Below are positions 1-16,647 of a stretch of 64,000 bases of DNA, one piece after another. Origin of the DNA: Candidatus Aegiribacteria sp. MLS_C (GTDB taxonomy: Bacteria > Fermentibacterota > Fermentibacteria > Fermentibacterales > JCC-6). Location of the stretch: assembly GCA_002030045.1 (NCBI GenBank), contig LQBI01000033.1, forward strand, positions 1-64,000. The letters are read 5' to 3'. A program made the position numbers and the translations under genes. Below the pieces are notes generated by a model. It saw only the letters and a list, made by a program, of their open reading frames with translations, did not search any database and was not told the DNA's origin. The number at the start of each line of letters is the position of its first letter. Position 1 is the first letter of the stretch.

Positions 1-81
1 GCTTATTGCGAAGACTGCAGTCCATTTGAGTGGAAAAAGGAAAAAGTACACCAAGTTACCCTTAAGCGATGTTACGCTGAC

Positions 82-1326
82 TTATGCAAGTAGGTAGTAG
101 CCGGTTCCACCGGGCCTGTCGGTGGAGCGCTCGTCCCAGATGACCATTCCTGTGAGTTCGCCTCCGAAGGATTCGGACAGTTCGGCGGCATACTCCAGCA
201 TGTAGTCTGCCGCCATTCTGTAGGCCTCGCCGGATTCGTTTCGGAACCGTGAGCCCGAGGATGTCTCGACACGGTGGGCCTGCTCCAGAACCCTGTCGAA
301 TCTGGGAAGCCAGGCGCTGGCTTCGCTCTCCGCCAGGGATCTGCGGAAATGCCTTACCGGGGCGGGCAGTATCACATGCGTGCTCCTGCCGATTTCCAGC
401 AGGCATTCGTGAAAGAGAAGGTCCGCGCCATCCGCGGCGGAGGCTATCCCTATGTCCGGTCTAAGACCCAGCAGTGTTTTTCTGAGTCGGTTCTTGACCC
501 TGGAGCTGATGCTGTCCGGAAAACGGACCCCGGGGCGTCCTGGTCTGTCCACCCTGTGACCTGCAAAGACGATGATCCGGGGCGTTCTGATCGAATCCAG
601 GACCCTTGCCGCCTCCTCTTCGGGTATGTCTAGGCTTTCGATGAGGGCAAGGGCGTTAATCCTGGCGGACTTGATCTGACCGAGTTTTCCGCAGAGATGG
701 CTCCCGGCGCTCTCGTACCATCTTGCGGCCGTCCCGTAGTCGCCCCTGATGAGGTAAGCCTCTCCCATGGAGGCGGGTATCCAGTACTCGCTTGTCGTGC
801 CGTGCCGATTGTACTTCTCCCAGCACTCGGATATGACCTCCTCGGCCAGTTCCAGGCTGAGGTCCCTCATACCGAGGAAGATCGCCAGCGAGGCGGCGTT
901 GATGGTGCACCAGTAGTCACATCCGAGTCCGCGACTCCTCATGTAGCTCTTGAATGAAGCGGAGAGAGACCTGTGCGCTTCTTCGGGATCTGAACCCCTG
1001 GCCTCGAGCCACCTGCGTTTGTAGAAGCTTCCCAGAAGGGCAGAGAGCCGTGCATCCTCCTCCGGGTGTATTCCTTCCGTTCCCTCTAGAAGGTCTATGG
1101 CCTCGTCGGTCATTCCAAGCCTGGACATGCACAGGGCGTGAAGACCGATCCCGGCAGGGTAATTCCGCTCCGAGCCGCCCATGGCCCTCTCTCCGAGTTC
1201 GTATGCCCGCAGGTACTCACCCCTGGAGATGAGTTCCTTGATGTTCGAGATCTCGAACTCACCATGCATGGAGTCAGGATACCTGCGCAGGTCTTCCGGA
1301 CCTGCTGTCAGCTGATCTTTCATCAT
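82..1326 (-). CDS. TPR protein with C-terminal SLOG-like domain (TPR-S type)
   Basis: This is a 414-residue protein with no signal peptide or membrane segment, so it is probably cytoplasmic. Residues ~25-245 are helical and TPR-like. The C-terminal ~150 residues begin with a beta strand and the motif IIVFAGHRVDRPGRP, followed by RFP, then SAADGADLLFHE and HVILPAP. This pattern matches the Rossmann-like SLOG domain that ends TPR-S proteins, which are known from NTP-dependent conflict and signalling gene sets. SLOG domains of this class bind nucleotide-derived ligands. It is the last gene of a run with the TIR protein and the secreted ConA-like protein (139-base gap), which suggests it senses or responds to the TIR product. 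ATG codons at 1326 and 1323 are both possible; GGGGAG lies just upstream. The domain call is moderately sure; the function is inferred. Confidence 0.75.
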   Translation of the reverse strand: MMKDQLTAGPEDLRRYPDSMHGEFEISNIKELISRGEYLRAYELGERAMGGSERNYPAGIGLHALCMSRLGMTDEAIDLLEGTEGIHPEEDARLSALLGSFYKRRWLEARGSDPEEAHRSLSASFKSYMRSRGLGCDYWCTINAASLAIFLGMRDLSLELAEEVISECWEKYNRHGTTSEYWIPASMGEAYLIRGDYGTAARWYESAGSHLCGKLGQIKSARINALALIESLDIPEEEAARVLDSIRTPRIIVFAGHRVDRPGRPGVRFPDSISSRVKNRLRKTLLGLRPDIGIASAADGADLLFHECLLEIGRSTHVILPAPVRHFRRSLAESEASAWLPRFDRVLEQAHRVETSSGSRFRNESGEAYRMAADYMLEYAAELSESFGGELTGMVIWDERSTDRPGGTGYYLLA

Positions 1327-1464
1327 ATCTCCCCGATGGTCATAGTGAGCGGGTTATTCTGCAGGTATTCCGAGTTCCCGTGTAGCCGTACTTCCGGAAA
1401 AGCTCCATGGTGCCTGCCCCGGCAACTATAGTCCGAAGGATGCCTGACAGGCGAGTGGTACATA

Positions 1465-2181
1465 TCAGATACTCCCGACGCGGACATTGTCGTGAAGAGC
1501 GATGCCCCAGGAGGAGGACCTGTCGCCCAGCCTTATCCTCACCGTACGGGTGGTATCCGGAACAGCGACGGAGGAAACGCACCACAGGGAGTCGTCTATC
1601 AGATAGCTCACGGTCAGGTCATCGTTGATCTCGAGCCTGAACCTGTGCCATCCGTCCAGCAGCTGGTTCTGGTGGTAATACTGTTGAGCGAAGGATTCTT
1701 CCGGACTTCGCCGGCAGGATAAGCTTATGACGGCCTGACGGTGAGGAGCGGCCCAGTCCAGCTCGCCGCTGTAGGAAAGGTCTATGCGGGCTATGCAGTA
1801 TTCCTCTTCTGTCGAATCGCCCTGTCTGAACCCCGGCGTCACGATCTCCAGGCAGGCAGTGACCCATGTGCCCCTCTCCAGGCATGTGAGGTATACGTCG
1901 CACTCAGCGAAGAAGCCCGCTCCCAGCTGGAAGGTCTCCCTGGAGACCGCTCCGCTGCCGACATTGGAGTCGCCATTGTTGCAGAAGGCGGGCGCCGGAA
2001 GTCCCAGTGAATCCACGGTCATAGGAAGGGGGTCGCCGTAGAAGAACCAGCGTTCCGACAGTGCGGACGAGGAGAAATCGTCCAGGAGGAGCGTCTCACC
2101 GGATGTGGCGGGAATGCATACCAGCGAAAGGAACATCACCGTCCCCGCAACGCGCGAGCCGTGTCCCGTCCGGTTCACCAT
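1465..2181 (-). CDS. Secreted protein with ConA/LamG-like domain
   Basis: The 238-residue product has an N-terminal hydrophobic signal (VAGTVMFLSLVCIPATSG) and would be exported. The rest is beta-rich. It opens with LLLDDFSSSALSERWFFYGD and ends with WGIALHDNVRVGSI, the layout of a concanavalin A/laminin-G-like jelly roll. It resembles the C-terminal ~205 residues of the upstream TIR protein: DDF.../EDW... opening, a RFRLEIN/RLTIET strand and a closing HDNVRV/HVDDLRL. Its start overlaps the TIR gene stop by seven bases, implying translational coupling. It could be a soluble ligand-binding partner or decoy of the TIR protein ectodomain; that role is inference. No catalytic residues are evident. 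Confidence 0.6.
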   Translation of the reverse strand: MVNRTGHGSRVAGTVMFLSLVCIPATSGETLLLDDFSSSALSERWFFYGDPLPMTVDSLGLPAPAFCNNGDSNVGSGAVSRETFQLGAGFFAECDVYLTCLERGTWVTACLEIVTPGFRQGDSTEEEYCIARIDLSYSGELDWAAPHRQAVISLSCRRSPEESFAQQYYHQNQLLDGWHRFRLEINDDLTVSYLIDDSLWCVSSVAVPDTTRTVRIRLGDRSSSWGIALHDNVRVGSI

Positions 2182-4436
2182 CTCCGTCTGCAGAGCCTCA
2201 GGTCGTCAACATGGTGAGGAAGGGATCCGGAGTTTCCCCAGATGTAGACCCCCACCGTGTCACATCCTGTGCGGGAGCCGACCGAGTCCTCATGGAAGAG
2301 CCTGTCCCCAGCCCAGAACCTGACGGTCCGGGAGCAGGTCTCGATGGTGAGCCGCTGGGGCACTCCCCGTTCCAGCCATAGGGATTCCGCACCGCAGAAA
2401 GCCAGCACCGAGCCGTCGGAGATTGTCCTGGTCTCCAGTCCCCGTACCTGGCCGTTGCCGCCGGGTGTGTAGACCCATCTCAGTTCCATGTCGGACACCA
2501 TTCCCGGGTCCAGGAGGAAGTCGTCGGCGCTGCCACCGGTCATTCCGAATGCCACCCAGTTGTTCCCTCCCGTCACGGGCATGTCAGGAACGGTTATGTC
2601 GGCGGACAGACAGAGTCCCGGGACCAGCGGGAACCGGGCGATGCTCACCACGGAAACATTATTGGCGTCGAAGGACCAGTTTCCCGAAATACTGTCCCTG
2701 TGCAGCACCGGTGAGTAATTGCGGTTGAATCCCATTTCCCATACGGTCTGGTCTATGAAGCCCCTCTCCCAGTCCTCGGCGAAGATATCGACCCCTGTGA
2801 CGGTCTCCGGGTTCCATCTGCCGTCTTCCGTGAACCGTATGACCCAGGCGTCGGGCTGACCGTACATGGACGTACCGCCGGCTGCCCAGATGGTCCCGTC
2901 GGCCGCCCTGGAAACTGCCGAGAGGTAGTCTTCCCCGCCCATGTCCACCACCGAATGCCACTGCTGTCTTCCCTCCTGATCGAGACGAATGAGCCAGCCG
3001 TCCCTGGAGCCGCTGCCCCAGGAGCCCGTGTATCCTGCAAGCAGAACGTCGCCTGCCGGCATCAGGAGAGCATCGTTGATGACATCCGGCATCGATCCCC
3101 CGTAGCTTCTCTCCCACAGAAGCTCGAGGTCGGGCGAGAACCTCATCACCGAGAGGTCCCCCCTGCCGCTGCCGTAGGTGTCCCTGGTCATCGCGAGAAG
3201 GATATCGCCTCCGGGGAGTTCCAGCCCGCACGAAACATGGGAACGGGCATCCCCGATCACTATCCTGTCCATCAGGTCACCCGTGGGGGAAACCGTTTCC
3301 ACCCCGTTTGCCCTTGAGGGAAGGTCGCGGAAGACCCTGAGCAGGTCTCCGTTCTCCAGCACGACAAGATCCCTGGCGGTGTTGCTCTCTCCAAGTGTGT
3401 CCCTGGAAACGAAACCGCCGGATGCGTCGATGACAACCTGATGATTGGCCCTGAAACAGGTCGAACTGATCTGCCTGAGGGTGAAGAACAGGTATACGAG
3501 GCTGTCGTCCGCCATATCCATCGAGGCCAGCTCGGGCTGGACGGCCCCTTCCCACTCGAGCCACCATTCTTGGTCCCAGACTTCTCCTCCGGCGCTGTCC
3601 AGCCTGACGGCCCTCACCGGGAAACCCGTATGGTCGAAGTCGGCGTACTCCCCCGCGGCACAGATGAGACCATCCGTCCCGGCCTTCAGGAGCCGAGGTT
3701 TGTCCTCGCCCGCCAGGGAGTCGGACCAGGTCCACATTATCCTGCCCTCCCCGTCGAAACGGGTTATCCACCACTCGCTCCAGAATCCCCAGTCCCAGGT
3801 GCCGGTGGCCGTGAAGCCGCCGTCAGTACCGGCGATTATGTCGGTGGCGTAGTCCCAGGAGTCTGTACCGCCCGCGACCATGTTCAGCAGTCCGCGGACA
3901 TCGCCGCTTGAACCGGGGCTTCGGAGGATGATGAAAGCCCCTGCGGCCAGGAAGCTGAGAAGGATGATGAGCGCGGCTGCAACCCATATCCTGCGGCATC
4001 TCCTTCCGGGAAGGGACGCCGGAGGGGTTCTCGGTTCGATTCCCGGCAGATTGCCCAGGGATTCCAGGAGCCGGCCGCGTACTTCCTTCCAGCCGCCGCT
4101 GGCGTCCAGCCACTGGTGCGAGCCCGTGAAGTACTTTAAGCCCTTGGACAGCTCGATGTCCTCGAGCTTGATGGGTATAATGGTCTTCTTCAGGTTCGTG
4201 GCTATGTCAAGCTCGTTCCTTATCTGGCGGGAGTCGTTGGCATGCCCGCTGAACACCAGGACCATTCCGGAGGAGCCTGCGATGGCGTCGTAGATGGTTT
4301 CCGCCCAGTCGGCTCCCGGTGGTATGTCCCGGTATGAGACCCAGCAGCGGAACCCCGAGTCCTCCAGGAACTCCACCAGGCGGCGTACCTTCCTGTCGTC
4401 ACTGCTGGAATGGCTTACGAAGATGTAGTCTTCCAA
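2175..4436 (-). CDS. Membrane-anchored TIR-domain protein with beta-propeller and ConA-like ectodomain
   Basis: The 753-residue protein starts with a TIR domain (residues ~1-125): FVSHSSSDD, CWVSYRDIPPG, then SRQIRNELDIA, where Glu75 matches the glutamate that is catalytic in NAD-cleaving TIR domains. A single transmembrane segment follows (about 150-171, IWVAAALIILLSFLAAGAFII). Residues ~185-540 carry repeated blades with WD/DGWLIRLD-type motifs, as in secreted beta-propellers, and ~545-753 form a ConA/LamG-like domain. TIR would be cytosolic and the rest outside the inner membrane. TIR domains cleave NAD+ or make cyclic ADP-ribose signals in anti-phage systems such as Thoeris; here the ectodomain suggests an envelope sensor. 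It heads the run with 1465-2181 and 82-1326. Confidence 0.8.
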   Translation of the reverse strand: MEDYIFVSHSSSDDRKVRRLVEFLEDSGFRCWVSYRDIPPGADWAETIYDAIAGSSGMVLVFSGHANDSRQIRNELDIATNLKKTIIPIKLEDIELSKGLKYFTGSHQWLDASGGWKEVRGRLLESLGNLPGIEPRTPPASLPGRRCRRIWVAAALIILLSFLAAGAFIILRSPGSSGDVRGLLNMVAGGTDSWDYATDIIAGTDGGFTATGTWDWGFWSEWWITRFDGEGRIMWTWSDSLAGEDKPRLLKAGTDGLICAAGEYADFDHTGFPVRAVRLDSAGGEVWDQEWWLEWEGAVQPELASMDMADDSLVYLFFTLRQISSTCFRANHQVVIDASGGFVSRDTLGESNTARDLVVLENGDLLRVFRDLPSRANGVETVSPTGDLMDRIVIGDARSHVSCGLELPGGDILLAMTRDTYGSGRGDLSVMRFSPDLELLWERSYGGSMPDVINDALLMPAGDVLLAGYTGSWGSGSRDGWLIRLDQEGRQQWHSVVDMGGEDYLSAVSRAADGTIWAAGGTSMYGQPDAWVIRFTEDGRWNPETVTGVDIFAEDWERGFIDQTVWEMGFNRNYSPVLHRDSISGNWSFDANNVSVVSIARFPLVPGLCLSADITVPDMPVTGGNNWVAFGMTGGSADDFLLDPGMVSDMELRWVYTPGGNGQVRGLETRTISDGSVLAFCGAESLWLERGVPQRLTIETCSRTVRFWAGDRLFHEDSVGSRTGCDTVGVYIWGNSGSLPHHVDDLRLCRRRW

Positions 4437-4582
4437 CGTATCCTCTGCTTGCCCGTGGGTTCTGGATGGTCATCGTTGTTTCGGTGGAATATAAACATGC
4501 TATTACATATATTCACAGATACGATCGCCTACCACCCGGAAATCACCTGAAGCATATGCGGGGACTGCACGCGAGGAGAACA
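4437..4582. promoter_or_regulatory. Divergent AT-rich promoter region
   Basis: This is the only intergenic stretch between the minus-strand TIR gene and the plus-strand sulfatase-like gene. It has an AT-rich core at 4488-4515 (AATATAAACATGCTATTACA). On the minus strand TATATT (4488-4493) lies 18 bases from TGTGAA (4512-4517). On the plus strand TTGTTT (4476-4481) precedes TATTAC (4501-4506) at a long 19-base spacing. Both promoters are weak guesses. No operator-like inverted repeat is obvious. Confidence 0.35.
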
Positions 4583-5902
4583 ATGTTCAGAAATGCAGGG
4601 CCGGTTCCGGCTGTCACCATGCTGCTGTTTCTCCTCGCCTGCGGAGATGGCGCCGGCACCGTCTCGCGTCCGGGGATCGTGGTCGTGATAATCGACACCC
4701 TTAGGGCCGACCATCTGGGCTGCTACGGCTATGAGCGGGACACTTCACCGGTTATCGACAGCCTGGCCGGGGAAGGCACCATCTGGAGAGACTGCCAGGC
4801 TCAGGCTCCTTGGACCCTGCCGGCCACAGCCACCATCCTGACGGGACTGACTCCCAGAGAGCACGGGACCGGCAGGAGGAACGGTGTCGATTACGTGCTC
4901 GACAGTGAAGTGCCAACTTTCGTGACGATCCTTGCCGATGCCGGTTACAGTACGTTCGGAGTGTTCAACGTTGCCCTGCTCTCGGAGCGGATGGGCTTTG
5001 CAAGGGGCTTCGACTGCTACTCGTGCGACGATTGCGGAGTGTACAGGGCTGCCGAGACCGTTGACGAGTTCCTGCGGTGGCTCGAGGAGCGGGATGATCC
5101 GGAACCATTCCTGGCGGTGGTCCACATATTCGATGTCCATCAACCCTACGACCCGCCGGAACCCTACGACGACATGTTCCTTCCGGGTGACACCCTGCAG
5201 CAGGTATACTGGGAGATAAGCGAAGGCGGGATCGATCATCCCGAGCATGCGGAACATTTCGTCGCCAGGTACGACGGGGGCATACGATGGGTGGACACCC
5301 AGCTGGGCAGGCTCTTCGCCGGTCTGAGGTCAGGCGGTCTTGCCGACGGCGTGGTGGTCATATTAACCGCCGATCACGGGGAGGAATTCCTGGAGCACGG
5401 CTGGGTCGGACATGGGGGCAGTTTCTTCCAGGAAGTTCTGCATGTGCCCCTGGTCATGTCCGGGCCCGGAATAGGCAGGGGCAGGGAAGTCGGGACAACG
5501 GTGGGCCAGATGGACATCATGCCCACCATACTGTCCCTCTGTTCCGTAGAGGTCCCCGACGGTCTGCCCGGTACGGACCTTCTCGGCTCCAGTTCCGGCG
5601 AGGACAGGATCATACCCGCCAGCTCCGCGAGTTTCACCGGCAGCATGTCGGGGTACGCACCGCTGACCGAGGTCCGCTTCGGTCGCATGAAGGGCATCCT
5701 GACCAGGCGCGGAAGCACTGACCGCTACGTCATGTACGACCTCCTGGAGGACCCCGGGGAGCAGTCCCCCCTTCGGGCCGACTCGGCGATGGTGCGACTT
5801 CTGGACATCAGGATGACCACTCCCATGCTGTACGAACCCCTGAGGGCAGGCGACCTGGACGAAGGGTCCAGGAGCGCCCTGGAAGCGCTGGGTTACATCT
5901 GA
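4583..5902 (+). CDS. Sulfatase-like (alkaline phosphatase superfamily) lipoprotein
   Basis: The 439-residue product begins with a lipoprotein signal ending LLFLLAC (lipobox cysteine near residue 20), so it is likely membrane-anchored outside the cytoplasm. The catalytic fold is clear: VVVIIDTLRADHLGCYGY, metal-binding VVILTADHGEEFLEHG and HVPLVMSGPG. At the nucleophile position, where sulfatases have C/S-x-P-x-R, the sequence reads PWTLPATATILTG, giving threonine as the likely nucleophile. That favours a phosphoesterase or phosphotransferase over a formylglycine sulfatase. The ORF stays open back to 4319, but ATG 4583 is chosen because GCGAGGAG lies just upstream and the lipobox then falls at the right distance. 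The substrate is unknown. Confidence 0.8.
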   Translation: MFRNAGPVPAVTMLLFLLACGDGAGTVSRPGIVVVIIDTLRADHLGCYGYERDTSPVIDSLAGEGTIWRDCQAQAPWTLPATATILTGLTPREHGTGRRNGVDYVLDSEVPTFVTILADAGYSTFGVFNVALLSERMGFARGFDCYSCDDCGVYRAAETVDEFLRWLEERDDPEPFLAVVHIFDVHQPYDPPEPYDDMFLPGDTLQQVYWEISEGGIDHPEHAEHFVARYDGGIRWVDTQLGRLFAGLRSGGLADGVVVILTADHGEEFLEHGWVGHGGSFFQEVLHVPLVMSGPGIGRGREVGTTVGQMDIMPTILSLCSVEVPDGLPGTDLLGSSSGEDRIIPASSASFTGSMSGYAPLTEVRFGRMKGILTRRGSTDRYVMYDLLEDPGEQSPLRADSAMVRLLDIRMTTPMLYEPLRAGDLDEGSRSALEALGYI

Positions 5903-6128
5903 CATCCATTCCCCGTACACCTTCTTCCGAGTACTGCCCCTCAGTTTTCTTCATCCTTCGTCTCTCGAGCCGTTCCTATCCTGAGTACGGGGTTTTGACG
6001 GGGCTGCGGTACCTCCGTATGTTCTTTCCTGCAGAAACAGGCCCGGCCCGGTCCAGGGTTCAGGCCCTCCTTTCCAACAGCCTGCCCCTGCCGGACGGAA
6101 TCCCATCTCAGCAGCCAGAGGGGGTCCC

Positions 6129-7706
6129 ATGGATACACTTGACGAACTGAGGGCGGAAGCTCGCGCAGGCGGAGGAGAGGACAAGACCCGGAAACGCCAC
6201 GAGGAAGGCAGACTGACCGCCCGAGAGAGGCTGGATGTCCTTCTGGACAAGGACTCCTTCAACGAGCTGGGCATGTTCGTTACCCACGACTGCCATGATT
6301 TCGGAATGGAAGAGAAGAAGTTCCTTGGCGACGGTGTCGTCACGGGCTACGGGACCGTCCACGGACGACTGGTATACGTCATATCCGAGGATTTCACCGT
6401 ACTGGGAGGTTCCCTTTCGAAGAAGTACGCCGAGAAGATAGCCCTGACACAGTCCCTGGCGCTGAAGAACGGTGCTCCTATGATAAACCTGAAGGACTCG
6501 GGAGGGGCCAGGATACAGGAGGGGATAGACTCCCTGGCAGGTTACGGCATGGTTTTCATGGGCAATGTCAGGGCATCGGGAGTGATTCCGCAGATATCGG
6601 TCATCATGGGTCCGTGCGCGGGAGGGGCCGTATACTCACCTGCTCTAACGGATTTCGTCTTCATGGTCGACAGCAGGAGCTACATGTTCCTCACCGGTCC
6701 AGACGTCATAAGGGAGGTGACCCACGAGGAAGTGACCTTCGAGGAGCTGGGAGGGGCGGCGGCGCACAACTCGAAGAGCGGGGTGGCGCATTTCAGATGC
6801 GATTCCGAGGAGCAGGCGCTCTCCATGGTGAGGGAGCTGCTGACCTACCTTCCGCAGAACAACATGGAAGACCCTCCGGTAGTGGTGCATAAGAAGCGTA
6901 CGGGGCTCCGCGGCAAGCTGGGCTCGCTCGTCAAGCAGGTCAGGGGAGGCGGAAGGGAGGAGGCCCTGGAGAGGGTCCTCCCGGATAACCAGTCGCTGCC
7001 CTACGACATGAAGAGAATAATAGCCGGCATAGTGGACGAGGATTCCTTCTTCGAGGTCCACAGGCACTTCGCCCCCAGCATCATAGTAGGTTTCGGGCGC
7101 CTGGAGGGGATGACCATAGGTATTGTTGCCAACCAGCCCGCACACCTTGCGGGAGTTCTGGACACCCTCTCTTCGGCCAAGGCTGCCAGGTTCGTACGTT
7201 TCTGCGACTCGTTCAACATCCCGCTGCTGGTGCTGGAGGACGCCCCCGGCTTCCTGCCCGGGGTCAGTCAGGAGCATACGGGAGTGATAAAGGAGGGGGC
7301 CAAGCTGCTCTACGCTTTCTGCGAGGCTACAGTACCAAGAATAACCGTGGTCATCAGGAAGGCCTACGGCGGGGCCTACATTGCCATGAACTCAAAGCAG
7401 ATAGGCGCAGACCTCAACTTCGCCTGGCCTACGGCCCAGATCGCGGTCATGGGCGCGGAAGGTGCCGTGAAGATCCTCTTCAGAAGGCAGCTGGCCTCAT
7501 CGCCGGAGCCGGAAGACGAGAGAAGGCAGCTGGTGGACCAGTACAACCTGAAGTTCAGCAATCCCTATGTCTCTGCCAGCAAGGGATACATAGACGAGGT
7601 CATTAAACCTTCCGAGACCAGGTCCAGGCTGATAGCCGCTTTCTCCTCGCTGCGGACCAAGCTGGAGAAGCGGATCGACCGCAAGCACGGGAACATGCCC
7701 CTGTGA
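6129..7706 (+). CDS. Acyl-CoA carboxylase carboxyltransferase (beta) subunit
   Basis: The 525-residue protein matches the length and sequence of propionyl-CoA carboxylase beta/methylmalonyl-CoA decarboxylase alpha. It has the N-terminal RLTARERLDVLLDKDSF motif, the N-terminal crotonase-like half (GGSLSKKYAEKI, NLKDSGGARIQEGI, MGPCAGGAVYSPA) and the second half (PLLVLEDAPGFLPG, RKAYGGAYIAM, PTAQIAVMGAEGAV). It transfers CO2 between carboxybiotin and an acyl-CoA, most likely propionyl-CoA. It forms an operon with the biotin carboxylase (4-base GTGA overlap) and a biotin carrier protein, making a complete three-part enzyme. Whether the pathway runs toward carboxylation or decarboxylation cannot be read from the sequence; no membrane decarboxylase subunit lies nearby. 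A GGGGG run precedes the ATG. Confidence 0.93.
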   Translation: MDTLDELRAEARAGGGEDKTRKRHEEGRLTARERLDVLLDKDSFNELGMFVTHDCHDFGMEEKKFLGDGVVTGYGTVHGRLVYVISEDFTVLGGSLSKKYAEKIALTQSLALKNGAPMINLKDSGGARIQEGIDSLAGYGMVFMGNVRASGVIPQISVIMGPCAGGAVYSPALTDFVFMVDSRSYMFLTGPDVIREVTHEEVTFEELGGAAAHNSKSGVAHFRCDSEEQALSMVRELLTYLPQNNMEDPPVVVHKKRTGLRGKLGSLVKQVRGGGREEALERVLPDNQSLPYDMKRIIAGIVDEDSFFEVHRHFAPSIIVGFGRLEGMTIGIVANQPAHLAGVLDTLSSAKAARFVRFCDSFNIPLLVLEDAPGFLPGVSQEHTGVIKEGAKLLYAFCEATVPRITVVIRKAYGGAYIAMNSKQIGADLNFAWPTAQIAVMGAEGAVKILFRRQLASSPEPEDERRQLVDQYNLKFSNPYVSASKGYIDEVIKPSETRSRLIAAFSSLRTKLEKRIDRKHGNMPL

Positions 7707-9196
7707 ACAGCATAGGCAAGGTCCTGGTGGCAAACAGGGGAGAAATAGCCATCAGGATAATGCGGGCCTGCAGGGAGATGGGAATAGAGTCCGTTGCCGT
7801 CTACTCCGATATAGACAGGACCTCCAGGCATGTCCGCTACGCCGACGAGGCGTACTGCATCGGCCCAGCCCCCTCGATAGAGAGCTACCTGAGGATCGAC
7901 AGGGTAGTGGAGACGGCCCTGGAGAGCGGATGTGATGCAGTGCATCCCGGATACGGCTTCCTGGCGGAGAACCCGGGACTCCCTTCCGCATGTCTTGATG
8001 CGGGTCTTGTGTTCATAGGACCCTCAGCCCGTTCCATGGCTCTTCTCGGGAACAAGACGCAGGCCCGCAGGATGGCTGTGGAAGCCGGTATACCCATTGT
8101 CCCGGGTACAAAGGAACCGCTGTCCGATGTAAGAGAAGCCGAGAAGGCGGTAGAGGAGATGGGGCTTCCCGTGCTTCTCAAGGCAGCGGGAGGAGGAGGG
8201 GGAAAGGGCGTTAGGATCGTCAGGGAGGCCTCGGGCCTCAGGTCCAGCCTTGAGCAGGCTACCGCAGAGGCCCGGGCGGCATTCGACAACCCCGACATAT
8301 ACATAGAGAGGTACCTCGAACGGCCGAGGCACGTTGAGATACAGGTTCTGGCCGACCTTCACGGTAACGTCGTGCACCTGGCGGAGAGGGAGTGCTCCGT
8401 GCAGAGGAGGTTCCAGAAGCTCATAGAGGAGGCTCCCAGCTGCGCGCTGGACGGGGAACTCAGAAGCAGGATGGGAGAGGCCGCCAGGAAGGCGGTGATA
8501 GCTTCCGACTACCACAATGCCGGAACCGTTGAATTCCTGCTCGATTCCGGTGGCGACTTCTACTTCTGCGAGGTCAACGCCCGGCTCCAGGTCGAGCATC
8601 CGGTCACCGAACTCATTACCGGAGTGGATATAGTCAAGGAGCAGATACGCATAGCTCAGGGACTCCCTCTGTCTTTCTCGCAGGAGGACATTGATATCCG
8701 GGGTTCCGCCATAGAGTGCAGGATCTGCGCGGAGGACCCCGTTTCCTTCCTTCCCTCTACGGGGACCATAACCGAGCTGGAGGAGCCGTCGGGACCCGGG
8801 GTCAGGCTGGAATCCGGCATCAGCGAGGGTTACAAGGTATCTCTCTACTACGACCCGCTCATAGCGAAGCTGATAGTCTGGGGCCGCGACCGTTCCGAGG
8901 CCATCGCCAGGATGAGGCGTGCACTGGAGGAGTACAGGATCAAGGGAATACACACTACCATTCCCTTCCACCTGAAGGCTATGCAGAGCGTGCAGTTCGT
9001 CTCCGGAGAGTACGATACCGGCATAGTGCAGGAGATCGAGCATCCGGAGACGGAGATCCATATCGAGATTGCCGCCATAGCCGCGGCGATTGTGGCCGGT
9101 GAGGAGATGGCGGTGGAGCTGGGAGGCGAAACGGAGGAGAGCAGATGGAAGATGCTGGGGAGGGTTGGTAATGGCCTTCATCGTGCGAAGTGGTGA
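7703..9196 (+). CDS. accC: Biotin carboxylase subunit of acyl-CoA carboxylase
   Basis: The 497-residue protein is an ATP-grasp biotin carboxylase. Visible marks are [20 protein letters not shown], the glycine-rich ATP loop [15 protein letters not shown], the [17 protein letters not shown] strand, [17 protein letters not shown], and the metal/catalytic stretch [18 protein letters not shown]. It carboxylates biotin on the carrier protein using bicarbonate and ATP. The length is slightly above the usual 445-450, owing to an acidic, alanine-rich tail ([20 protein letters not shown]) resembling the linker of acyl-CoA carboxylase alpha chains. The GTG start overlaps the stop of the carboxyltransferase gene. 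The gene also overlaps the carrier-protein gene by 26 bases. Confidence 0.94.
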
Positions 9197-9674
9197 GCGC
9201 AGCTTCAGGATAAGTCCCCGACTCGTAGAGAGCACGGAGCACGAGGACCACTACCTGGTCCTGATGGACGACTCGGAGCACCGGCTCAGCGTCACCAGGA
9301 TAACCCCCACCCATCTCTCCATCCTGCTCGGGAACAAGTCCTACAACGTGGAGGTTGAGAGGAGCGGAAGCGATTACAGGGTGACCACCCGCGGGGAGGT
9401 TTTCACTTTCAGGGTCGCGGACGAGTTCCTCCAGTCCTCCGAGGAGGCCTCCGCATCCGGAGAGGCGGTGATAACAGCCCCCATGCCGGGCCTCGTGGTC
9501 AAGATTCTTGTAAGCGAGGGAGACGAGGTCAGGGCCGGCCAGGGTCTTCTAGTGCTGGAGGCGATGAAAATGCAGAACGAGATACCGGCCCCGGGTTCGG
9601 GGACGGTAAGGGAGGTCCCGGTGCAGGAGGGGAACACAGTCATGACAGGGGACATCCTGGTGGTGATCGACTGA
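9171..9674 (+). CDS. Biotin carboxyl carrier protein (biotinyl domain)
   Basis: The 167-residue product ends in a biotinyl domain with the canonical EAMKMQNEI motif; the lysine between the methionines is the biotinylation site. Flanking strands [20 protein letters not shown] and [14 protein letters not shown] are typical. The N-terminal ~85 residues are a beta-rich linker domain like those of acyl-CoA carboxylase alpha chains. ATG 9171 is preferred to an in-frame codon at 9090 because GGGGAGGG (9157-9164) is well placed before it. The gene overlaps the end of accC. It shuttles carboxybiotin between the two preceding subunits. Confidence 0.9.
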
Positions 9675-9694
9675 GGGACAGGTGAACGTACGGG

Positions 9695-9862
9695 GTGCTT
9701 TCTGAAGGTCTGGAATGCACATGGAGCCTCGCCCCGCCTCCCGAAAGCAGCGATGAATGGACCGGCGCCATGAGAAAAGAGCAGACGGGCAGGTTCAGGA
9801 GGGCGAGGACCATGGACGAAGAGGCCGTCAACGCTTCAGGAAGAGCTCTGAAAGCACTCTGA
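9695..9862 (+). other. Possible small ORF (55 residues, GTG start)
   Basis: After the biotin carrier gene there is an open frame from GTG 9695 to TGA 9860-9862. It encodes a peptide rich in Glu, Arg and Ala (SEGLECTWSLAPPPESSDEW near the start, ASGRALKAL at the end). Codon choice (AGG, GAG, GCC) resembles nearby genes, but the upstream Shine-Dalgarno match is poor and no family is recognised. It could equally be a gene remnant or chance. Confidence 0.2.
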
Positions 9863-9876
9863 ACCCGCTCATCCCC

Positions 9877-10368
9877 TCAATTGACGTCCCCGATGTATAC
9901 AGGACCGCCGTAATCACCTCTGATGAGTCCAGGCAGTATGGACCGCAGGGCATCGGGATAGATCCTCAGTGATGCGATCCTCTCGGGGGACACCCATTCC
10001 ACCCCCGTCTGCCAGGCGTCGTGCTCGGGAGGGGAATCAACCTGCTCCAGGGGCTTCGCCATGAATACTATCTCGGTCTGATGGACGTCGCTCTCCCACC
10101 GGGCGAACTGATGATTGGCGCCGAGGTAGTCCCGGACCAGCACCAGCCTGCCGGGTTCCACCAGCCATCCGGTCTCCTCGATCACTTCCCTCACCATCGC
10201 CTGAATAACGGTCTCTCCGAACTTCTGCCCGCCGCCCGGCAGCAGGTAGAAGTCTCCCAGGTGGTCGCGGTTGACCGTGAGGAGCACCCTGCCTTCCGAT
10301 ACAACCACAGCCTTGCAGGAATTCCGCTTCCTGCCGGTGCCGTCCTCGACGCTGAATGGTCCTGTCAT
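9877..10368 (-). CDS. Nudix hydrolase
   Basis: The 163-residue protein has a full Nudix box, GGGQKFGETVIQAMVREVIE followed by ETGW (G-x5-E-x7-REVxEExGW). It begins with KAVVVSEGRVLLTVN, the first strand of the fold. Nudix enzymes hydrolyse nucleoside diphosphates linked to another group; the substrate here cannot be told, although the HDAWQTGVEWVSPE segment and overall size resemble MutT/ADP-sugar-type members. It starts one base after the stop of the prepilin peptidase gene on the same strand, so the two are probably co-transcribed without an obvious functional link. Confidence 0.85.
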   Translation of the reverse strand: MTGPFSVEDGTGRKRNSCKAVVVSEGRVLLTVNRDHLGDFYLLPGGGQKFGETVIQAMVREVIEETGWLVEPGRLVLVRDYLGANHQFARWESDVHQTEIVFMAKPLEQVDSPPEHDAWQTGVEWVSPERIASLRIYPDALRSILPGLIRGDYGGPVYIGDVN

Positions 10369-10369
10369 G

Positions 10370-11200
10370 TCAGAACGAGGCCCCCAGCCGCAGGTAGGCC
10401 TCCCACAGCCCTCGACCCGCGAAGACCGTGACGATGGAGCCGATCGCGAGGAAGGGTCCGAATGGAACGGGTACCCGCCTGTTCCTGCCGGCCAGTATGA
10501 AGGCTGTTCCCGCGAGACCTCCGGCCAGGAACGACAGGAACAGTGCGACCCCGGTCAGGGCGGGACCGAGGAAAGCCCCTGTCATGGCCGCCAGCTTGAT
10601 ATCCCCCCACCCCATACCTCCCTGGAACTCCTCCGCCTCCGACTCGTGACCCTCGGGAGGCAGTGTGTAACCGGGCCTGCGTTTCAGCAGCATTCCGGCA
10701 ACGGTCCTGATGATGAGGAAGAGAAGAAATGCGGATACGGAGGTGATGAGATGCGGGAGGAACTTCCCCGCTCCCGGCAGAAGGGCGAATCCCAGCCCGA
10801 CAGCCGTTCCGCCGAGACTGACGCTGTCAAGCACTATCCAGTGGTCGATGTCCGTCAGGACCGTGCAGACCAGGAGGGATACGAAGACGGCGTACTTGAG
10901 TGAGAGCCAGGACTGGCCGAACCTCATGACCACGGCAAGGAAGAGCAGGCCGGTAACCAGCTCCACCAGGGCGTAGCGGAAGGAGAAGGCTGCACCGCAG
11001 CTTCTGCACCTGCCCCTCAGGAGGAACCAGCTCAGAACAGGCACGTTGTCGAACCACCTTATCGGGGTTCCGCAGGATGTGCACCTGCTTGCTGGGCGGA
11101 CTATGGACTCTCCCCTGGGAACCCTCCAGGCGACCACGTTGAGGAAACTCCCCACCGAGGCGCCGAACAGGAACGAGAAAACAAGGTACATTGTCCTCAA
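10370..11200 (-). CDS. pilD: Prepilin peptidase (type IV leader peptidase)
   Basis: The 276-residue membrane protein has both halves of a bifunctional prepilin peptidase. The N-terminal domain has GASVGSFLNVVAWRVPRGES and a zinc-binding cysteine set, SRCTSCGTPIRWFDNVPVLS followed by RGRCRSCGAAFS. The C-terminal aspartyl protease domain has the two catalytic aspartates in CTVLTDIDHWIV and GMGWGDIKLAAM (GxGD). About eight hydrophobic segments are present. It cleaves and N-methylates type IV pilins or pseudopilins at the inner membrane. No pilin genes are in this window, so it probably serves loci elsewhere. Confidence 0.93.
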   Translation of the reverse strand: MRTMYLVFSFLFGASVGSFLNVVAWRVPRGESIVRPASRCTSCGTPIRWFDNVPVLSWFLLRGRCRSCGAAFSFRYALVELVTGLLFLAVVMRFGQSWLSLKYAVFVSLLVCTVLTDIDHWIVLDSVSLGGTAVGLGFALLPGAGKFLPHLITSVSAFLLFLIIRTVAGMLLKRRPGYTLPPEGHESEAEEFQGGMGWGDIKLAAMTGAFLGPALTGVALFLSFLAGGLAGTAFILAGRNRRVPVPFGPFLAIGSIVTVFAGRGLWEAYLRLGASF

Positions 11201-11243
11201 GGTACCACCCGGACTGCATTACCTATGAAAGGTGTAAGGATAT

Positions 11244-11272
11244 TTGTCTGTTCGCCCAGCCTTTAGTATAAT
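11244..11272 (+). promoter_or_regulatory. Sigma-70-type promoter of the first porin gene
   Basis: TTGTCT (11244-11249) and a perfect TATAAT (11267-11272) are separated by 17 bases. Transcription would begin near 11279, leaving a leader of about 110 bases before the porin ATG. TTGTCT recurs as the -35 box at 18319. Confidence 0.75.
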
Positions 11273-11282
11273 CCTGCCGATA

Positions 11283-11355
11283 CGGAGACGGGAGTAGGCT
11301 CCCGACCATGGAAAACCGGTCATGCAGGTATTCCTCAAGCCTGTCCCTGTCTCCG
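11283..11355 (+). promoter_or_regulatory. Candidate structured 5' leader RNA of porin gene
   Basis: The leader can fold into a closed multi-branch junction. The closing stem is CGGAGAC (11283-11289) with GTCTCCG (11349-11355). Inside are GGGAG/CTCCC (11290-11294 with 11299-11303), GACC-AT-GG/CC-GGTC with an AAAA loop (11304-11321), and CAGG/CCTG (11325-11328 with 11340-11343). No known riboswitch consensus was recognised. The arrangement is complementarity seen by eye, not an energy calculation. A strong Shine-Dalgarno (AAAGGAGGG) lies further down, just before the ATG. Confidence 0.45.
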
Positions 11356-11392
11356 CGTTCTTGATAACTCAACCCAAAGGAGGGAGTACTTC

Positions 11393-12433
11393 ATGAAGTA
11401 CGCACTGGCACTGGTTGCGCTTGTTTCAGTCCTGGCGATGGCAGAGCCCGTCGTCGACATCTCCGGTTTCGCCAAGGCCTGGTTCTACATGTACGGCGAG
11501 GAGGGAGCGAACCCCGAGAACACCTTCAGGGCCTACGACTGGACCACCGTCAAGGGCAGGCTCAGCGACGACGTCTACGCCTTCGTGGGCGCCAGCTACA
11601 GCTCCTGGGATTCCGATGGCGACCTCCAGGTATGCGACGCCTACCTCACCATGGACATCGTCCCGGAGCTTTCCATCAAGGCCGGCCAGTTCAACATCCC
11701 CCTGGGATGGGCCAACTGCTGCCCCGGCGGAAACCTTTACTTCCTTGACAGGGCCGGAGTGGTCTCTACCGACGAGTTCGGCTGGTACAGCGACCGCGAC
11801 CTGGGCGTGAACCTCCACGGCCAGTTCGACATGGTGGGCGTGGATGTGGGCTACTTCAACGGCACCGGCATCCATGCCGACGCCAGCGAGTTCTGGAACA
11901 AGGAGTTCGTGGGCAAGCTCACCCTGGACGCCACCGACTGGCTGAGGATAGCAGGAGGCGTAGGCATGATAGGCCAGCCTCAAATCGACACCCTCGGTAC
12001 TGTTCTTCAGGAAGAGTGGTCTTCGATGGGCATCAACGCCTACGCACTGGCCGACTACCCGATGTCCGAGAGCGCCGATCTCATCTTCGAGGCCGAGTAC
12101 TGGAACTTCGGCTACGCCGGACCGGATGTGGACAATGTTGACGAGGAAGCCGGAATGGACCTCTACGCCACCCTTGGCGTGCACTTCATGCTGGACGGCG
12201 GCTTCCTCCACTCCATCATGCCGGCTGTCCGCTACGAGATGTACAGCCCCCAGGAGGCCGTTACGACCGGCGCCGACCGGGCCGAGGACAACACCAGCTG
12301 GATAGACGCCTGCGTGAACTGCTTCATCACCCCTTCGAACACGCTTCAGCTGGGCATCAGGAACTGGAGCTTCGAGGACGAGAACCTGGACGGCTACACC
12401 GACATGTACCTCGGCTGGAGGCTCAACTACTAG
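11393..12433 (+). CDS. Outer-membrane porin-like beta-barrel protein
   Basis: The 346-residue protein has a signal peptide (MKYALALVALVSVLAMAEP) and then alternating aromatic/polar strands ending in a terminal aromatic strand (MYLGWRLNY), as in outer-membrane barrels. Motifs such as VDISGFAKAWFYMYGEEG, SIKAGQFNIPLGW and GVNLHGQFDMVGVDVGYFNG resemble phosphate-selective/OprP-like porins, where a strand ending in RLGQFxxPxG is usual. It is strongly acidic. A paralogue follows at 12695. The gene has its own promoter and a long leader, and a terminator follows, so it is probably a highly expressed single-gene unit. The solute specificity is unknown. Confidence 0.8.
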   Translation: MKYALALVALVSVLAMAEPVVDISGFAKAWFYMYGEEGANPENTFRAYDWTTVKGRLSDDVYAFVGASYSSWDSDGDLQVCDAYLTMDIVPELSIKAGQFNIPLGWANCCPGGNLYFLDRAGVVSTDEFGWYSDRDLGVNLHGQFDMVGVDVGYFNGTGIHADASEFWNKEFVGKLTLDATDWLRIAGGVGMIGQPQIDTLGTVLQEEWSSMGINAYALADYPMSESADLIFEAEYWNFGYAGPDVDNVDEEAGMDLYATLGVHFMLDGGFLHSIMPAVRYEMYSPQEAVTTGADRAEDNTSWIDACVNCFITPSNTLQLGIRNWSFEDENLDGYTDMYLGWRLNY

Positions 12434-12480
12434 TCATTGCGACTGGACCTTCCCGCCGGGCCGCACCGGACGGGAAAGCA

Positions 12481-12543
12481 GCGACAGGTTCGTGCTAGTA
12501 CGCGACAGGTTCGTGCGAGGAAACGACAGGTTCGTGCGATGAC
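12481..12543 (+). repeat. Three 21-bp tandem repeats
   Basis: Copies begin at 12481, 12502 and 12523 with an exact 21-bp period. Each starts (G/A)CGACAGGTTCGTGC and differs in the last six bases. They lie between the porin stop and the terminator hairpin, so they would be in the 3' UTR. 21 bp is close to two helical turns, but no binding protein is suggested. Confidence 0.8.
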
Positions 12544-12544
12544 A

Positions 12545-12567
12545 GGGGCCCGGCACCGCCGGGCCCC
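12545..12567 (+). terminator. GC-rich terminator hairpin after the first porin gene
   Basis: A perfect 10-bp stem, GGGGCCCGGC (12545-12554) and GCCGGGCCCC (12558-12567), has a 3-base loop and is followed by TTCCCTTT. The T tract is interrupted but the stem is very stable. Confidence 0.75.
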
Positions 12568-12577
12568 TTCCCTTTGC

Positions 12578-12605
12578 GGGGTCGTACGTTACTTCGGGTC
12601 ACTTA
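12578..12605 (+). repeat. Intergenic REP-like element, copy A
   Basis: GGGGTCGTACGTTACTTCGG continues with GTCACTTA. The same 28-base sequence occurs at 46135-46162, and its reverse complement (27 bases) at 47363-47389 on the other side of the RAYT transposase gene. A variant is at 18242. It sits between a terminator and the promoter region of the second porin gene (TATACT at 12642-12647). Confidence 0.8.
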
Positions 12606-12694
12606 GCGATTCCGGGACTTCTCCAGTGCCGGCCGATACCTTATACTCCTCCGGCAGGCTTACCGACTCCCGATGATCCGACTGGAGGCATTTC

Positions 12695-13765
12695 ATGGGC
12701 AAGCTCGTATTGATGGCATTACTGATAGCTCTGACTGCGAACGCCGGGGACTTCGAGACCGGCGGGTCTGAAATGTTCAGGTTCAGCGGCTACAACCAGT
12801 TCCGTTTCGCCATGTGGGGCGAGGAAGGACACGACCCCTCGAACGGTTTCGATTTCTACAACAGGACGACATGGTCCCCCGAAGTTGGCGACATACTGTC
12901 GGCCAGGCTCTCCTTCGATACCAGGTACGGTTTCGTAGCCTGGGACAGCCTCTCCGGATATGTATCCGACGACTTCACCCTGAAGCTGGTCGAAGCGTAC
13001 GGTACGCTGGAGTTATCACCGGAGATACTCCTTTCCGGCGGCCGGTTCAAGCTCCCGTTCGGTTACGGCTACACGAGGTCCGGTGCGAGCATTCCGCACT
13101 ACGACAGGGTCTATGCCGTCTCCCGACCAGATTTCGGAGTGTACGGCGGCCTGGATGTGGGCATAATGCTGAGCACCGATTTCGGCCCTGTGATCGTCGA
13201 CCTTGCATATACCAACGGCACCGATTCTGCAGCCGATACTACGGTCAGCAAGCAGTTCACCGCCAGGCTTTCCCTGTCCCCGGCGGACTGGCTGTCGGCA
13301 GGCGGAGCGGTAGCGATCATCGGTCAGCCCGAGGTAGATACCATGGAAGAGTGGTCCGCCACCGGTCTGGACTTCTACCTTCATGGAGATTATGCGATAA
13401 CCTCCGATCTGATGTTGAATTACGAGGGCGAGTACATGATCCTCCCATGGCCAGGTCCTGTGCTCGACAACATGGAGAACGAGAGCGGAGGGGACTACAG
13501 CCTCAGTCTGGCGGGTACCAGGGAAGTGGATATGGGCTTACTGACCGGTATCCAGCCTGCCATAAGATTCGAGATGATAAGTCCTCCGGAGCAGGTCTCC
13601 TCCGGCGACCCGGTACCGGAGACCGACGTTTCGGTCCTGGACTACTGCCTTAACCTTCACACCGGACCGCTGAACACCGTCCAGCTGGGAGGCAGGAGCT
13701 TCTCCTTCGAGAACGGTGGCGAAGGTCATACGGATGTCTACGTCAACTGGAGGATGCTGTTCTAG
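12695..13765 (+). CDS. Outer-membrane porin-like protein, paralogue of the 11393 gene
   Basis: The 356-residue product has a signal peptide (MGKLVLMALLIALTANAG) and the same barrel layout as its neighbour: MFRFSGYNQFRFAMWGEEG, LLSGGRFKLPFGYGYTRSG, GLDVGIMLSTDFGPVIVDLA, GGAVAIIGQPEVDTMEEWSA and a terminal VYVNWRMLF. The strings IGQPxxDT, EEWSxxG and SxPExV recur in both proteins, showing recent duplication from a common ancestor with much divergence. It has a good Shine-Dalgarno (GGAGG before ATG 12695) and its own likely promoter (TTCTCC 12619, TATACT 12642, 17-base gap). Porin function is inferred from the fold pattern. Confidence 0.78.
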   Translation: MGKLVLMALLIALTANAGDFETGGSEMFRFSGYNQFRFAMWGEEGHDPSNGFDFYNRTTWSPEVGDILSARLSFDTRYGFVAWDSLSGYVSDDFTLKLVEAYGTLELSPEILLSGGRFKLPFGYGYTRSGASIPHYDRVYAVSRPDFGVYGGLDVGIMLSTDFGPVIVDLAYTNGTDSAADTTVSKQFTARLSLSPADWLSAGGAVAIIGQPEVDTMEEWSATGLDFYLHGDYAITSDLMLNYEGEYMILPWPGPVLDNMENESGGDYSLSLAGTREVDMGLLTGIQPAIRFEMISPPEQVSSGDPVPETDVSVLDYCLNLHTGPLNTVQLGGRSFSFENGGEGHTDVYVNWRMLF

Positions 13766-13786
13766 CCCTCCCCGGAGCGGATTTGC

Positions 13787-14776
13787 ATGGACGGCAGGAC
13801 TCCCGGTAGGGGAAGCAGGTACATCGATCCCGGAGTGCACCGTCGTTTCGACCGGCGGATGACGGTATTCCACCGGAGAGCAGTGTACACGGGGTTCGAC
13901 AGCTACAGCCAGGAGCGTTTCGATCCCGCCGATCCCGAACTGCTGGAACTGGCCGAAGCAAGGGCTGCGTGGCTGCTGCACGACAACTACCCAGGAGGTT
14001 TTCGGGACTCCATCGTCGGAGATTGCAGGCTCGTTCACGGCAGACCTCCCTTCAGGTTCCGCTTCCACAGCCCGGAAGAGGCCGCATCAAATGCCCGGGA
14101 TGTGGCGGAGCGATTCGGCGCCTCCCTGACAGGATTCACGGCGGTGGACAGCAGGTGGCTGTACAGCCGGGAACGTAGCGGAACACCGGTCGAACTGCCT
14201 GAAGAGGCGAAGTGGGCGGTGGTGATGGCGGTGGAGATGGACAGGGACCTGATGTCCACATCTCCGTCGCTCAGAGCTGCGGCCGAGTCCGGCAGGGGAT
14301 ACTCCCGTATGGCCTCCCTGGCAGGCGCCATGGGCGAGTACCTAAGGCTGCTCGGGTACTACGCCCGGTCATGCGGTAACGACACCTCACTGAGCATACC
14401 CCTGGCTGTGGATGCAGGTCTCGGGATCATGGGGAGGAACGGTCTTCTTCTCACCAGTGAGTTCGGTCCCAGGGTCAGGCTATGCAAGGTCTTCACGGAC
14501 CTTCAGCTCGTACAGTCAGTTTCGGAGTACCCGGAACCCGAGGAGATCTGTTCCGGATGCACGGTCTGCGCCGAAGCCTGTGAGGCGGGTGCGCTCAGCA
14601 GGGACGACCGTCCATGCTGGGACACACTGACTGGGTCCAACAATCCAGGAGTACTCAGGTGGCCCTTCGATCCCGAGAAGTGCTTCGACTACTGGCTGAA
14701 GATAGGCAGGGACTGCTCCAACTGCATAGCCGCGTGCCCGGCTGTCGCTCGAATAGGCTCTTTGCAGAAAAGCTGA
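13787..14776 (+). CDS. Reductive-dehalogenase/QueG-like double-cluster iron-sulfur protein
   Basis: The 329-residue protein ends with two 4Fe-4S motifs, CSGCTVCAEACEAG and C-x12-CSNCIAACPA; the widely spaced second motif is typical of the RdhA group. The core has DAGLGIMGRNGLLLTSEFG continuing PRVRLCKVFTD, the hallmark of the corrinoid-binding RdhA/QueG fold. No Tat signal or membrane segment is present, so it would be cytoplasmic, unlike respiratory dehalogenases. It is shorter than most RdhA proteins. The substrate is unknown; quinone-like, epoxide or organohalide reduction are possibilities. It begins 21 bases after the porin gene stop, so read-through from the porin promoter is possible. 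Confidence 0.75.
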   Translation: MDGRTPGRGSRYIDPGVHRRFDRRMTVFHRRAVYTGFDSYSQERFDPADPELLELAEARAAWLLHDNYPGGFRDSIVGDCRLVHGRPPFRFRFHSPEEAASNARDVAERFGASLTGFTAVDSRWLYSRERSGTPVELPEEAKWAVVMAVEMDRDLMSTSPSLRAAAESGRGYSRMASLAGAMGEYLRLLGYYARSCGNDTSLSIPLAVDAGLGIMGRNGLLLTSEFGPRVRLCKVFTDLQLVQSVSEYPEPEEICSGCTVCAEACEAGALSRDDRPCWDTLTGSNNPGVLRWPFDPEKCFDYWLKIGRDCSNCIAACPAVARIGSLQKS

Positions 14777-14810
14777 CCTGTAGCATTCCCGGGGACTTCT
14801 CATGCTTTCC

Positions 14811-14848
14811 TTGACACACTGTATTACTGCACTATTATAGTAATACAG
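14811..14848 (+). promoter_or_regulatory. Promoter with GntR-type operator
   Basis: A perfect -35 box TTGACA (14811-14816) is followed 16 bases later by TATTAT (14833-14838). CTGTATTACT (14819-14828) and AGTAATACAG (14839-14848) form a perfect 10-bp inverted repeat with a 10-base centre that contains most of the -10 box. The GntR gene starts 15 bases later with AAGGAGG upstream. Binding of the regulator here would block RNA polymerase, which fits autoregulation. Confidence 0.8.
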
Positions 14849-14863
14849 TAGAAGGAGGAATGC

Positions 14864-15235: not shown

Positions 15236-15236
15236 C

Positions 15237-16623: not shown

Positions 16624-16647
16624 CAATATCATGACAGGGAGTTAATC

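Follow-up and report, generated by a model that had tools for sequence, protein, structure and literature searches.

Which signal could a bacterial TIR receptor pass to a TPR protein that is encoded beside it and carries a SLOG-like domain? The question is raised by positions 82–4436 of the window, which is the 64,000-nucleotide stretch of DNA analyzed here (positions 1 to 64,000 of contig LQBI01000033.1 of Candidatus Aegiribacteria sp. MLS_C, assembly GCA_002030045.1). This genome (G000, with the window on contig C33) was compared with relatives from Ca. Aegiribacteria and other Ca. Fermentibacterota. Open reading frame (ORF) calls place three genes in this region, all on the minus strand, which applies to every gene and domain coordinate given below: a TIR receptor, a secreted protein (P2) and a TPR-S protein. 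An original prediction from the sequence had already recognized the TIR and TPR-SLOG genes, and its ORFs and same-strand run were found again where it had placed them, but it left the middle gene (1465–2181) undescribed, which belongs to the operon and is conserved with it. In the relatives the operon genes overlap or lie 8–54 bp apart. All three are genuine genes, and together they make up an operon that is conserved as a unit within Ca. Fermentibacterota. That TIR receptor and TPR-SLOG protein form a linked signalling unit is well supported by genomics. The analysis computed the order and co-inheritance of the genes, the domains, membrane topology and conserved residues of their products, and a break caused by an insertion sequence.

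The linkage is clearest within Ca. Aegiribacteria. Among 19 genomes, receptor and TPR-S are both present in six (G000, G001, G008, G009, G011, and G017) and both absent from 13, seven of which are at least 92% complete; neither gene occurs alone. For independent genomes, which these are not, a perfect 6/13 split would arise by chance once in 27,132. The divergence of receptor and TPR-S is correlated with r = 0.99, compared to approximately 0.91–0.93 for pairs involving flanking genes. TPR-S adjoins a TIR gene in G000, G008, G009, G017, G019, G020, and L113, with only P2 genes between them in loci of the Aegiribacteria type, and it shares a neighborhood with a TIR receptor in G022, G025, and G040. 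The gene order in the next genus (G019) is the same as in Ca. Aegiribacteria, and the receptor/TPR-S unit looks ancestral to both and often lost whole. In G020, which belongs to another genus, a TIR-TPR protein, which is not the TIR protein of the window, overlaps TPR-S, and in L113, a deltaproteobacterial metagenome-assembled genome, a TIR-CsgG-type protein is encoded 38 bases after TPR-S. Matches to TPR-S in random distant genomes were mostly weak and generic to TPR and were left out of this count. The same genes had been proposed as a target for a search in related genomes, and receptor, P2 and TPR-S were indeed found as neighbors there.

In genomes without the module, its site holds a NUDIX and an AlkD-type gene side by side (G003 and G012) or has other genes between these two (G013, G015, and G006). 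A mobile defence island is disfavored by this fixed site and by divergence that tracks the flanking genes. A plasmid search returned no TPR-S, and its matches to the receptor were all distant and to propellers. The cargo of the NUDIX/AlkD-type site in other species (L182–L189) consists of nothing, a sulfatase, an archaeal-type ATPase or propionyl-CoA carboxylase-like genes. In L113, positions 1889–8601 hold a row of a uracil-DNA-glycosylase family gene, the TPR-S-cyclase gene, the TIR-CsgG protein gene and a gene for a TPR/Ig-like/CsgG protein. In G025, a Ca. Sabulitectum-type genome, six tandem TIR genes were observed (L095, G025:C156:1-19000, positions 2575–17329), four of them of the receptor type with 4-base overlaps; the array is followed by genes for an AAA_16/TPR protein and a TPR-S protein (L148, positions 6321–8171). 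TIR receptors have expanded locally here, next to their candidate sensor.

The receptor gene (2175–4436) starts with TTG, as do its orthologues, and encodes a protein of 753 amino acids for which ORF, profile, alignment and structure model indicate a TIR domain, one transmembrane helix, a beta-propeller and a concanavalin A (ConA)-like beta-sandwich. Orthologues are 31–57% identical to it over their length. The TIR domain (approximately residues 1–130, 4047–4436) was recognized from the strands and helices of the model and by the Pfam profile TIR_2 (PF13676), which matched residues 5–122 with 81.2 bits against a cut-off of 28; it contains RDIPPG at residues 36–41. In structure comparisons it matched solved TIR domains including those of CRISPR-associated Cat1, TIR-APAZ, SpbK and Toll-like receptors (TLRs). 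The putative catalytic Glu75 (in RNELDIA, codon at 4212–4214) was placed by alignment, its NAD-cleaving role being putative, and is invariant in 26/26 receptor homologues, in line with the N-terminal TIR domain and catalytic-type glutamate originally described. A single transmembrane helix (approximately residues 147–170, 3927–3998), with GRRCRR just before it, was likewise found as read earlier: hydropathy gives one strong hydrophobic helix, with an Arg-rich N-terminal flank, in each of the 26 homologues, and the AlphaFold2 model has a helix at this position. The positively charged flank of a membrane helix marks the cytosolic side (the positive-inside rule), and because the N-terminal flank is Arg-rich the receptor is predicted to be N-in, with the TIR domain inside the cell.

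The large part predicted to lie beyond the membrane, also anticipated in the original prediction, consists of a propeller (approximately residues 185–545, 2802–3884) and a C-terminal beta-sandwich (residues 546–753, 2178–2801). The propeller is seen in the model, which found propeller proteins (CylK, sialidases) in a Foldseek search, and the sequence gave weak matches to DUF5122/delta-60 repeats. The AlphaFold2 receptor model (six homologues), with TIR domain, helix 147–170, propeller and sandwich, has a mean predicted local distance difference test (pLDDT) score of 72.7 and a predicted template modelling score (pTM) of 0.57, and the mutual placement of its domains is unreliable. The ratio of nonsynonymous to synonymous substitution rates (dN/dS) is approximately 0.14 for the receptor and 0.13 for its ectodomain (one compared pair), indicating purifying selection; the latter value rules out a diversifying, hypervariable ectodomain.

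P2 (1465–2181) overlaps the receptor gene and, from sequence and profile comparison, has a signal peptide and a ConA-like sandwich domain that is not covered by any Pfam family in a Pfam search. Its profile matched the C-terminal domain of the receptor with an hhalign probability of 94%, which indicates remote homology between P2 and the last domain of the receptor. The number of P2 copies in relatives ranges from one to four, and there is usually an overlap of a few bases between the first copy and the receptor gene.

Of the native TPR-S gene, the window holds the 5' part (residues 1–410) at 97–1326, up to a break; the ORF as printed reaches 82. The protein matches PF20308, the Pfam family that bears the name TPR-S, with 49.1 bits against a cut-off of 27.6 (45–80 bits in relatives). 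A TPR solenoid (approximately residues 28–235, 622–1245) was identified by profile and model, and motifs and model place a SLOG-like Rossmann domain behind it (approximately residues 245–410, 97–594; motifs FAGHRxD, RFP, AADGAD, ILPxP, and WDxR...GGTGY). The order of strands and helices and the chain of motifs fit the SLOG type, the pocket motifs are strongly conserved, and hhalign gave 96.5% to the counterpart in the G025 TPR-S protein. We call the domain SLOG-like only, because its alignment with a YspA-type SLOG is weak; no curated SLOG model confirms it. A fold search with the TPR-S model was swamped by TPR matches, which obscured the result for the SLOG domain. The proteins of relatives are approximately 610 amino acids long, compared to 414 for the window ORF, and in the model of the intact G008 protein (pLDDT 79.5, pTM 0.76) the TPR solenoid is followed by a Rossmann-type domain and then by a cyclase fold. 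This C-terminal domain aligned with the cyclase domain of Rv1900c (1ybt_B) with a template modelling (TM) score of 0.71 over 171 columns. Both metal-binding aspartates are lost in the window genome, where this part is on contig C1, and in close relatives, and are kept in G020, G036, and L113. The terminal domain is a class III cyclase fold that, judged by these residues, is predicted to be a catalytically dead pseudo-cyclase in the window lineage. The dN/dS is approximately 0.21 for TPR-S and 0.27 for its cyclase-fold domain, which is still constrained.

The short window ORF is explained by a break in the gene. Positions 1–96 are the end of an insertion sequence as well as the contig end, with the terminal repeat TACCTACTTGCATAAGT at 80–96 (minus strand), and the same element end is found on contigs C1, C4 and C24 of this genome. 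A genome search located the missing TPR-S end (approximately 208 codons) on C1, 94 bases from the contig end. The ends of C33 and C1 have similar terminal repeats (TACCTAC/ATTGCAT/GAAGT...) beside GTAG/CTAC, which forms a 4-bp target duplication at 97–100 in the window; when the flanks are joined at a single copy of these four bases, an uninterrupted frame of 230 codons results that matches the relatives. Approximately 90 identical bases of the C1 element end recur at the end of C4 and within C24. Past the break, C1 continues with c26, an AlkD-type gene, DUF72 and further genes in the way that they follow TPR-S in G008 and G001, and C33 and C1 are therefore neighboring contigs. The simplest reading of these sequences is that an insertion sequence interrupts the TPR-S gene; the lack of any stop in the part of TPR-S beyond the break suggests that the insertion may be recent. 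A complete 414-residue TPR-SLOG protein is ruled out by the length of the relatives and by the remainder on C1, and plain truncation at the contig end by the element ends on C1, C4 and C24 and the duplication at the break. The receptor/TPR-S pathway is probably impaired in the window genome. Where the original prediction had a TPR protein ending in a SLOG-like domain, the order of TPR and SLOG-like Rossmann domain stands, but the end is due to the break. Its remark that the protein has no killing domain describes the broken gene, since intact relatives go on into the cyclase-fold domain, dead here; the puzzle of a missing effector arose partly because the insertion sequence cut the gene. The element itself is present in multiple copies in G000 (window 1–100, the C1 end, the C4 end and C24:6861), where it is flanked by 4-bp targets of the CTAG/CTAC type; its terminal repeat is TACCTAMTTGCAKAAGT, and close to one end it has a start-like ATGGCTTACACTTCTGCTCC. 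The assembly is broken by this element, which is IS5-like as judged by target type only.

We read the locus as a signalling operon, and from these data we infer a ligand, a messenger, its sensing and an output. The receptor would span the inner membrane once, with propeller and sandwich outside and the TIR domain on the cytosolic side. Secreted P2 probably works with the ectodomain, binding either the ectodomain itself or the same ligand. Engagement of the ectodomain would cluster the TIR domains, which would produce an NAD (nicotinamide adenine dinucleotide)-derived messenger through Glu75; cytosolic TPR-S would sense this messenger in its SLOG pocket and pass its state on through the TPR scaffold and the C-terminal cyclase-fold domain. 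In remote relatives the metal residues of this domain are of the active type, and in the window lineage it may be a dead regulatory pseudo-cyclase. This order leans in part on a proposal that Burroughs and Aravind reportedly made in 2020, according to which TPR-S senses NAD-derived signals. It is also favored because the TIR product in Thoeris binds the SLOG pocket of ThsA (PMC11204291). The operon, the all-or-none presence, the correlated divergence, the recurrence in G020 and L113, the invariant Glu75, the SLOG-type motifs and purifying selection count for the proposal. The features on which the original prediction was staked were all recovered: TIR and Rossmann/SLOG-type folds are predicted, Glu75 is conserved, and the genes are neighbors in other genomes.

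Several observations weigh against it. In genus g5, receptor and TPR-S do not form one operon but lie in the same region with other genes between them (on single contigs in G022 and G025, elsewhere linked via shared flanking genes on separate contigs). Single genes occur as well, with only the receptor in G024 and G031 and only TPR-S in G035. None of the Pfam SLOG models matched the Rossmann domain, whose hhalign similarity to YspA-type SLOG was weak (40–64%), as was the sequence profile comparison with YAcAr/YspA SLOG domains. The dead terminal domain in this lineage cannot supply an output as an enzyme of the usual cyclase kind, the TPR-S gene of the window genome is broken, and the proposal is built on sequences and models. 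Taken as a whole, from receptor and P2 through a TIR-made NAD-derived messenger to sensing by TPR-S, we give the proposal an even chance. For its purpose we lean slightly toward sensing of an outside ligand over defence, because the operon is inherited vertically at one site, the ectodomain has a low dN/dS and no killing domain is present.

The main rival dispenses with the messenger: a clustered receptor would recruit TPR-S by direct contact, and the SLOG domain would bind an ordinary nucleotide in a structural role. TPR-S proteins also match the MAP3K TRAFs-binding family, which points to a scaffold for protein assembly, and the receptor TIR has an RDxxPG box, a feature characteristic of the TIRs of receptors and adaptors in animals but seldom seen in prokaryotes (PMC7075850). 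A pure scaffold, however, would need neither an enzyme-type glutamate that is invariant in 26/26 homologues nor strongly conserved SLOG pocket motifs, and we consider direct contact unlikely, though a serious contender. The TIR domain could also be the effector itself, with an envelope trigger leading to NAD+ depletion and TPR-S restraining the TIR domain or limiting its product. Many TIR defence proteins deplete NAD+, for example SpbK (PMC12847820), and the operon has no other killing domain; against this, G024 and G031 have receptors without TPR-S, and vertical inheritance and low dN/dS fit signalling at least as well, which makes this explanation decidedly unlikely.

Some SLOG clades are nucleosidases or predicted degraders of ADP-ribose (ADPR)-type signals (PMC9503650), and TPR-S might accordingly end the signal by destroying the TIR product. 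Sensing is a better fit to the fusion of TPR-S with cyclase-fold output domains, and we regard such an off-switch as improbable. To the idea that receptor and TPR-S are together by chance, for which their separation in genus g5 might speak, we attach hardly any probability: it is already refuted in part by all-or-none presence in the genus, co-divergence at r = 0.99, the overlap between genes and the renewed occurrence of TPR-S next to another TIR protein.

How far the NAD-messenger proposal departs from known systems depends on the level of comparison. Burroughs and Aravind are said to have proposed in 2020 (J Bacteriol e00365-20) that TIR and TPR-S proteins form pairs of NAD-signal producer and sensor. 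That work is cited in PMC10907252 and PMC8195603. The TIR/TPR-S pair itself is not new, as the pairing was already proposed, and the earlier statement that no such system has been described is too strong at this level; the receptor form, that is, the single-pass topology, the secreted partner and the TPR-SLOG-pseudocyclase, does appear undescribed. In a literature search with partial coverage, neither a bacterial TIR receptor that combines a single membrane pass and a propeller-sandwich ectodomain with a secreted partner and a TPR-SLOG-pseudocyclase nor a paper on TIR in Fermentibacteria came up. Shared with the TIR/TPR-S pairs (PF20308) are a TIR gene adjoining a TPR-S predicted to sense an NAD-derived signal and a TPR region related to the ASK/MAP3K scaffold, whereas the single-pass propeller-sandwich receptor, the secreted partner and a TPR-S with SLOG and (pseudo-)cyclase domains appear to differ from those pairs.

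With Thoeris (ThsB TIR with ThsA SIR2-SLOG or TM-macro) the operon would share the logic of a TIR producer and a SLOG-type receiver (PMC11204291). It differs in having no SIR2 or TM-macro effector, a membrane-anchored TIR with an ectodomain and a receiver of TPR, SLOG-like and cyclase folds; it is inherited vertically and is not known as a mobile locus for defence. A profile search of the proteins of the operon detected neither SIR2 nor macro domains, which rules out membership of Thoeris. The window receptor scored 20.7 bits with ThsB_TIR (PF08937), just below the cut-off of 21.2 that a few relatives pass, and 16 bits against 220 for the Thoeris type III equivalog. None of the PADLOC defence models matched over the full length, the best scores being 47 bits over the TIR region (Aga_TIR models) and 9 bits for TPR-S. 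The C-terminal domain of TPR-S resembles class III nucleotide cyclases such as Rv1900c in fold but differs in the lost aspartates of the window lineage.

Animal Toll/TLR and interleukin-1 receptor (IL-1R) family proteins are likewise single-pass, with a cytosolic TIR domain, an outside recognition domain and the RDxxPG box. In the window receptor, by contrast, the TIR domain is N-terminal (5–122) and N-in, and a propeller and sandwich replace the LRR or Ig ectodomain. The protein has neither the N-terminal outside LRR nor the C-terminal TIR domain of a Toll-like receptor and is not one by descent; the likeness is almost certainly convergent. The operon looks like a candidate bacterial equivalent of an immune receptor pathway at the cell surface. 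Whether it amounts to a bacterial Toll-like pathway, in which an outside ligand and a secreted co-receptor would act through a cytosolic NAD-derived messenger on a TPR-SLOG-pseudocyclase readout, is a more tentative suggestion, to which we give somewhat less than an even chance. The trigger in known bacterial TIR signalling is usually inside the cell. If the proposal is true, the operon would provide a bacterial route for transmembrane signalling by an NAD messenger, which takes its inputs from outside the cell instead of from phage parts inside; signals could then cross the envelope of bacteria by way of NAD-derived messengers too, and animal TIR receptors would have a parallel in bacteria that can be tested. 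The cyclase domains on the sensor range from active-type to dead, and the change of output in a receiver could be studied along this range.

Other TIR proteins were noted in the window genome. On contig C31 (L053, positions 2446–4880), a TIR-FGE-sulfatase(FGS) protein is encoded beside a protein of 360 amino acids on the opposite strand, which has no Pfam match, contains IYLSYCRPDMDPSW near its start and perhaps carries a very divergent TIR-like domain. On contig C11 (L052, positions 3566–7243, minus strand), a STAND-type protein of approximately 1,225 amino acids combines TIR, AAA_16 and TPR domains, and TIR proteins of similar size are found across the family.

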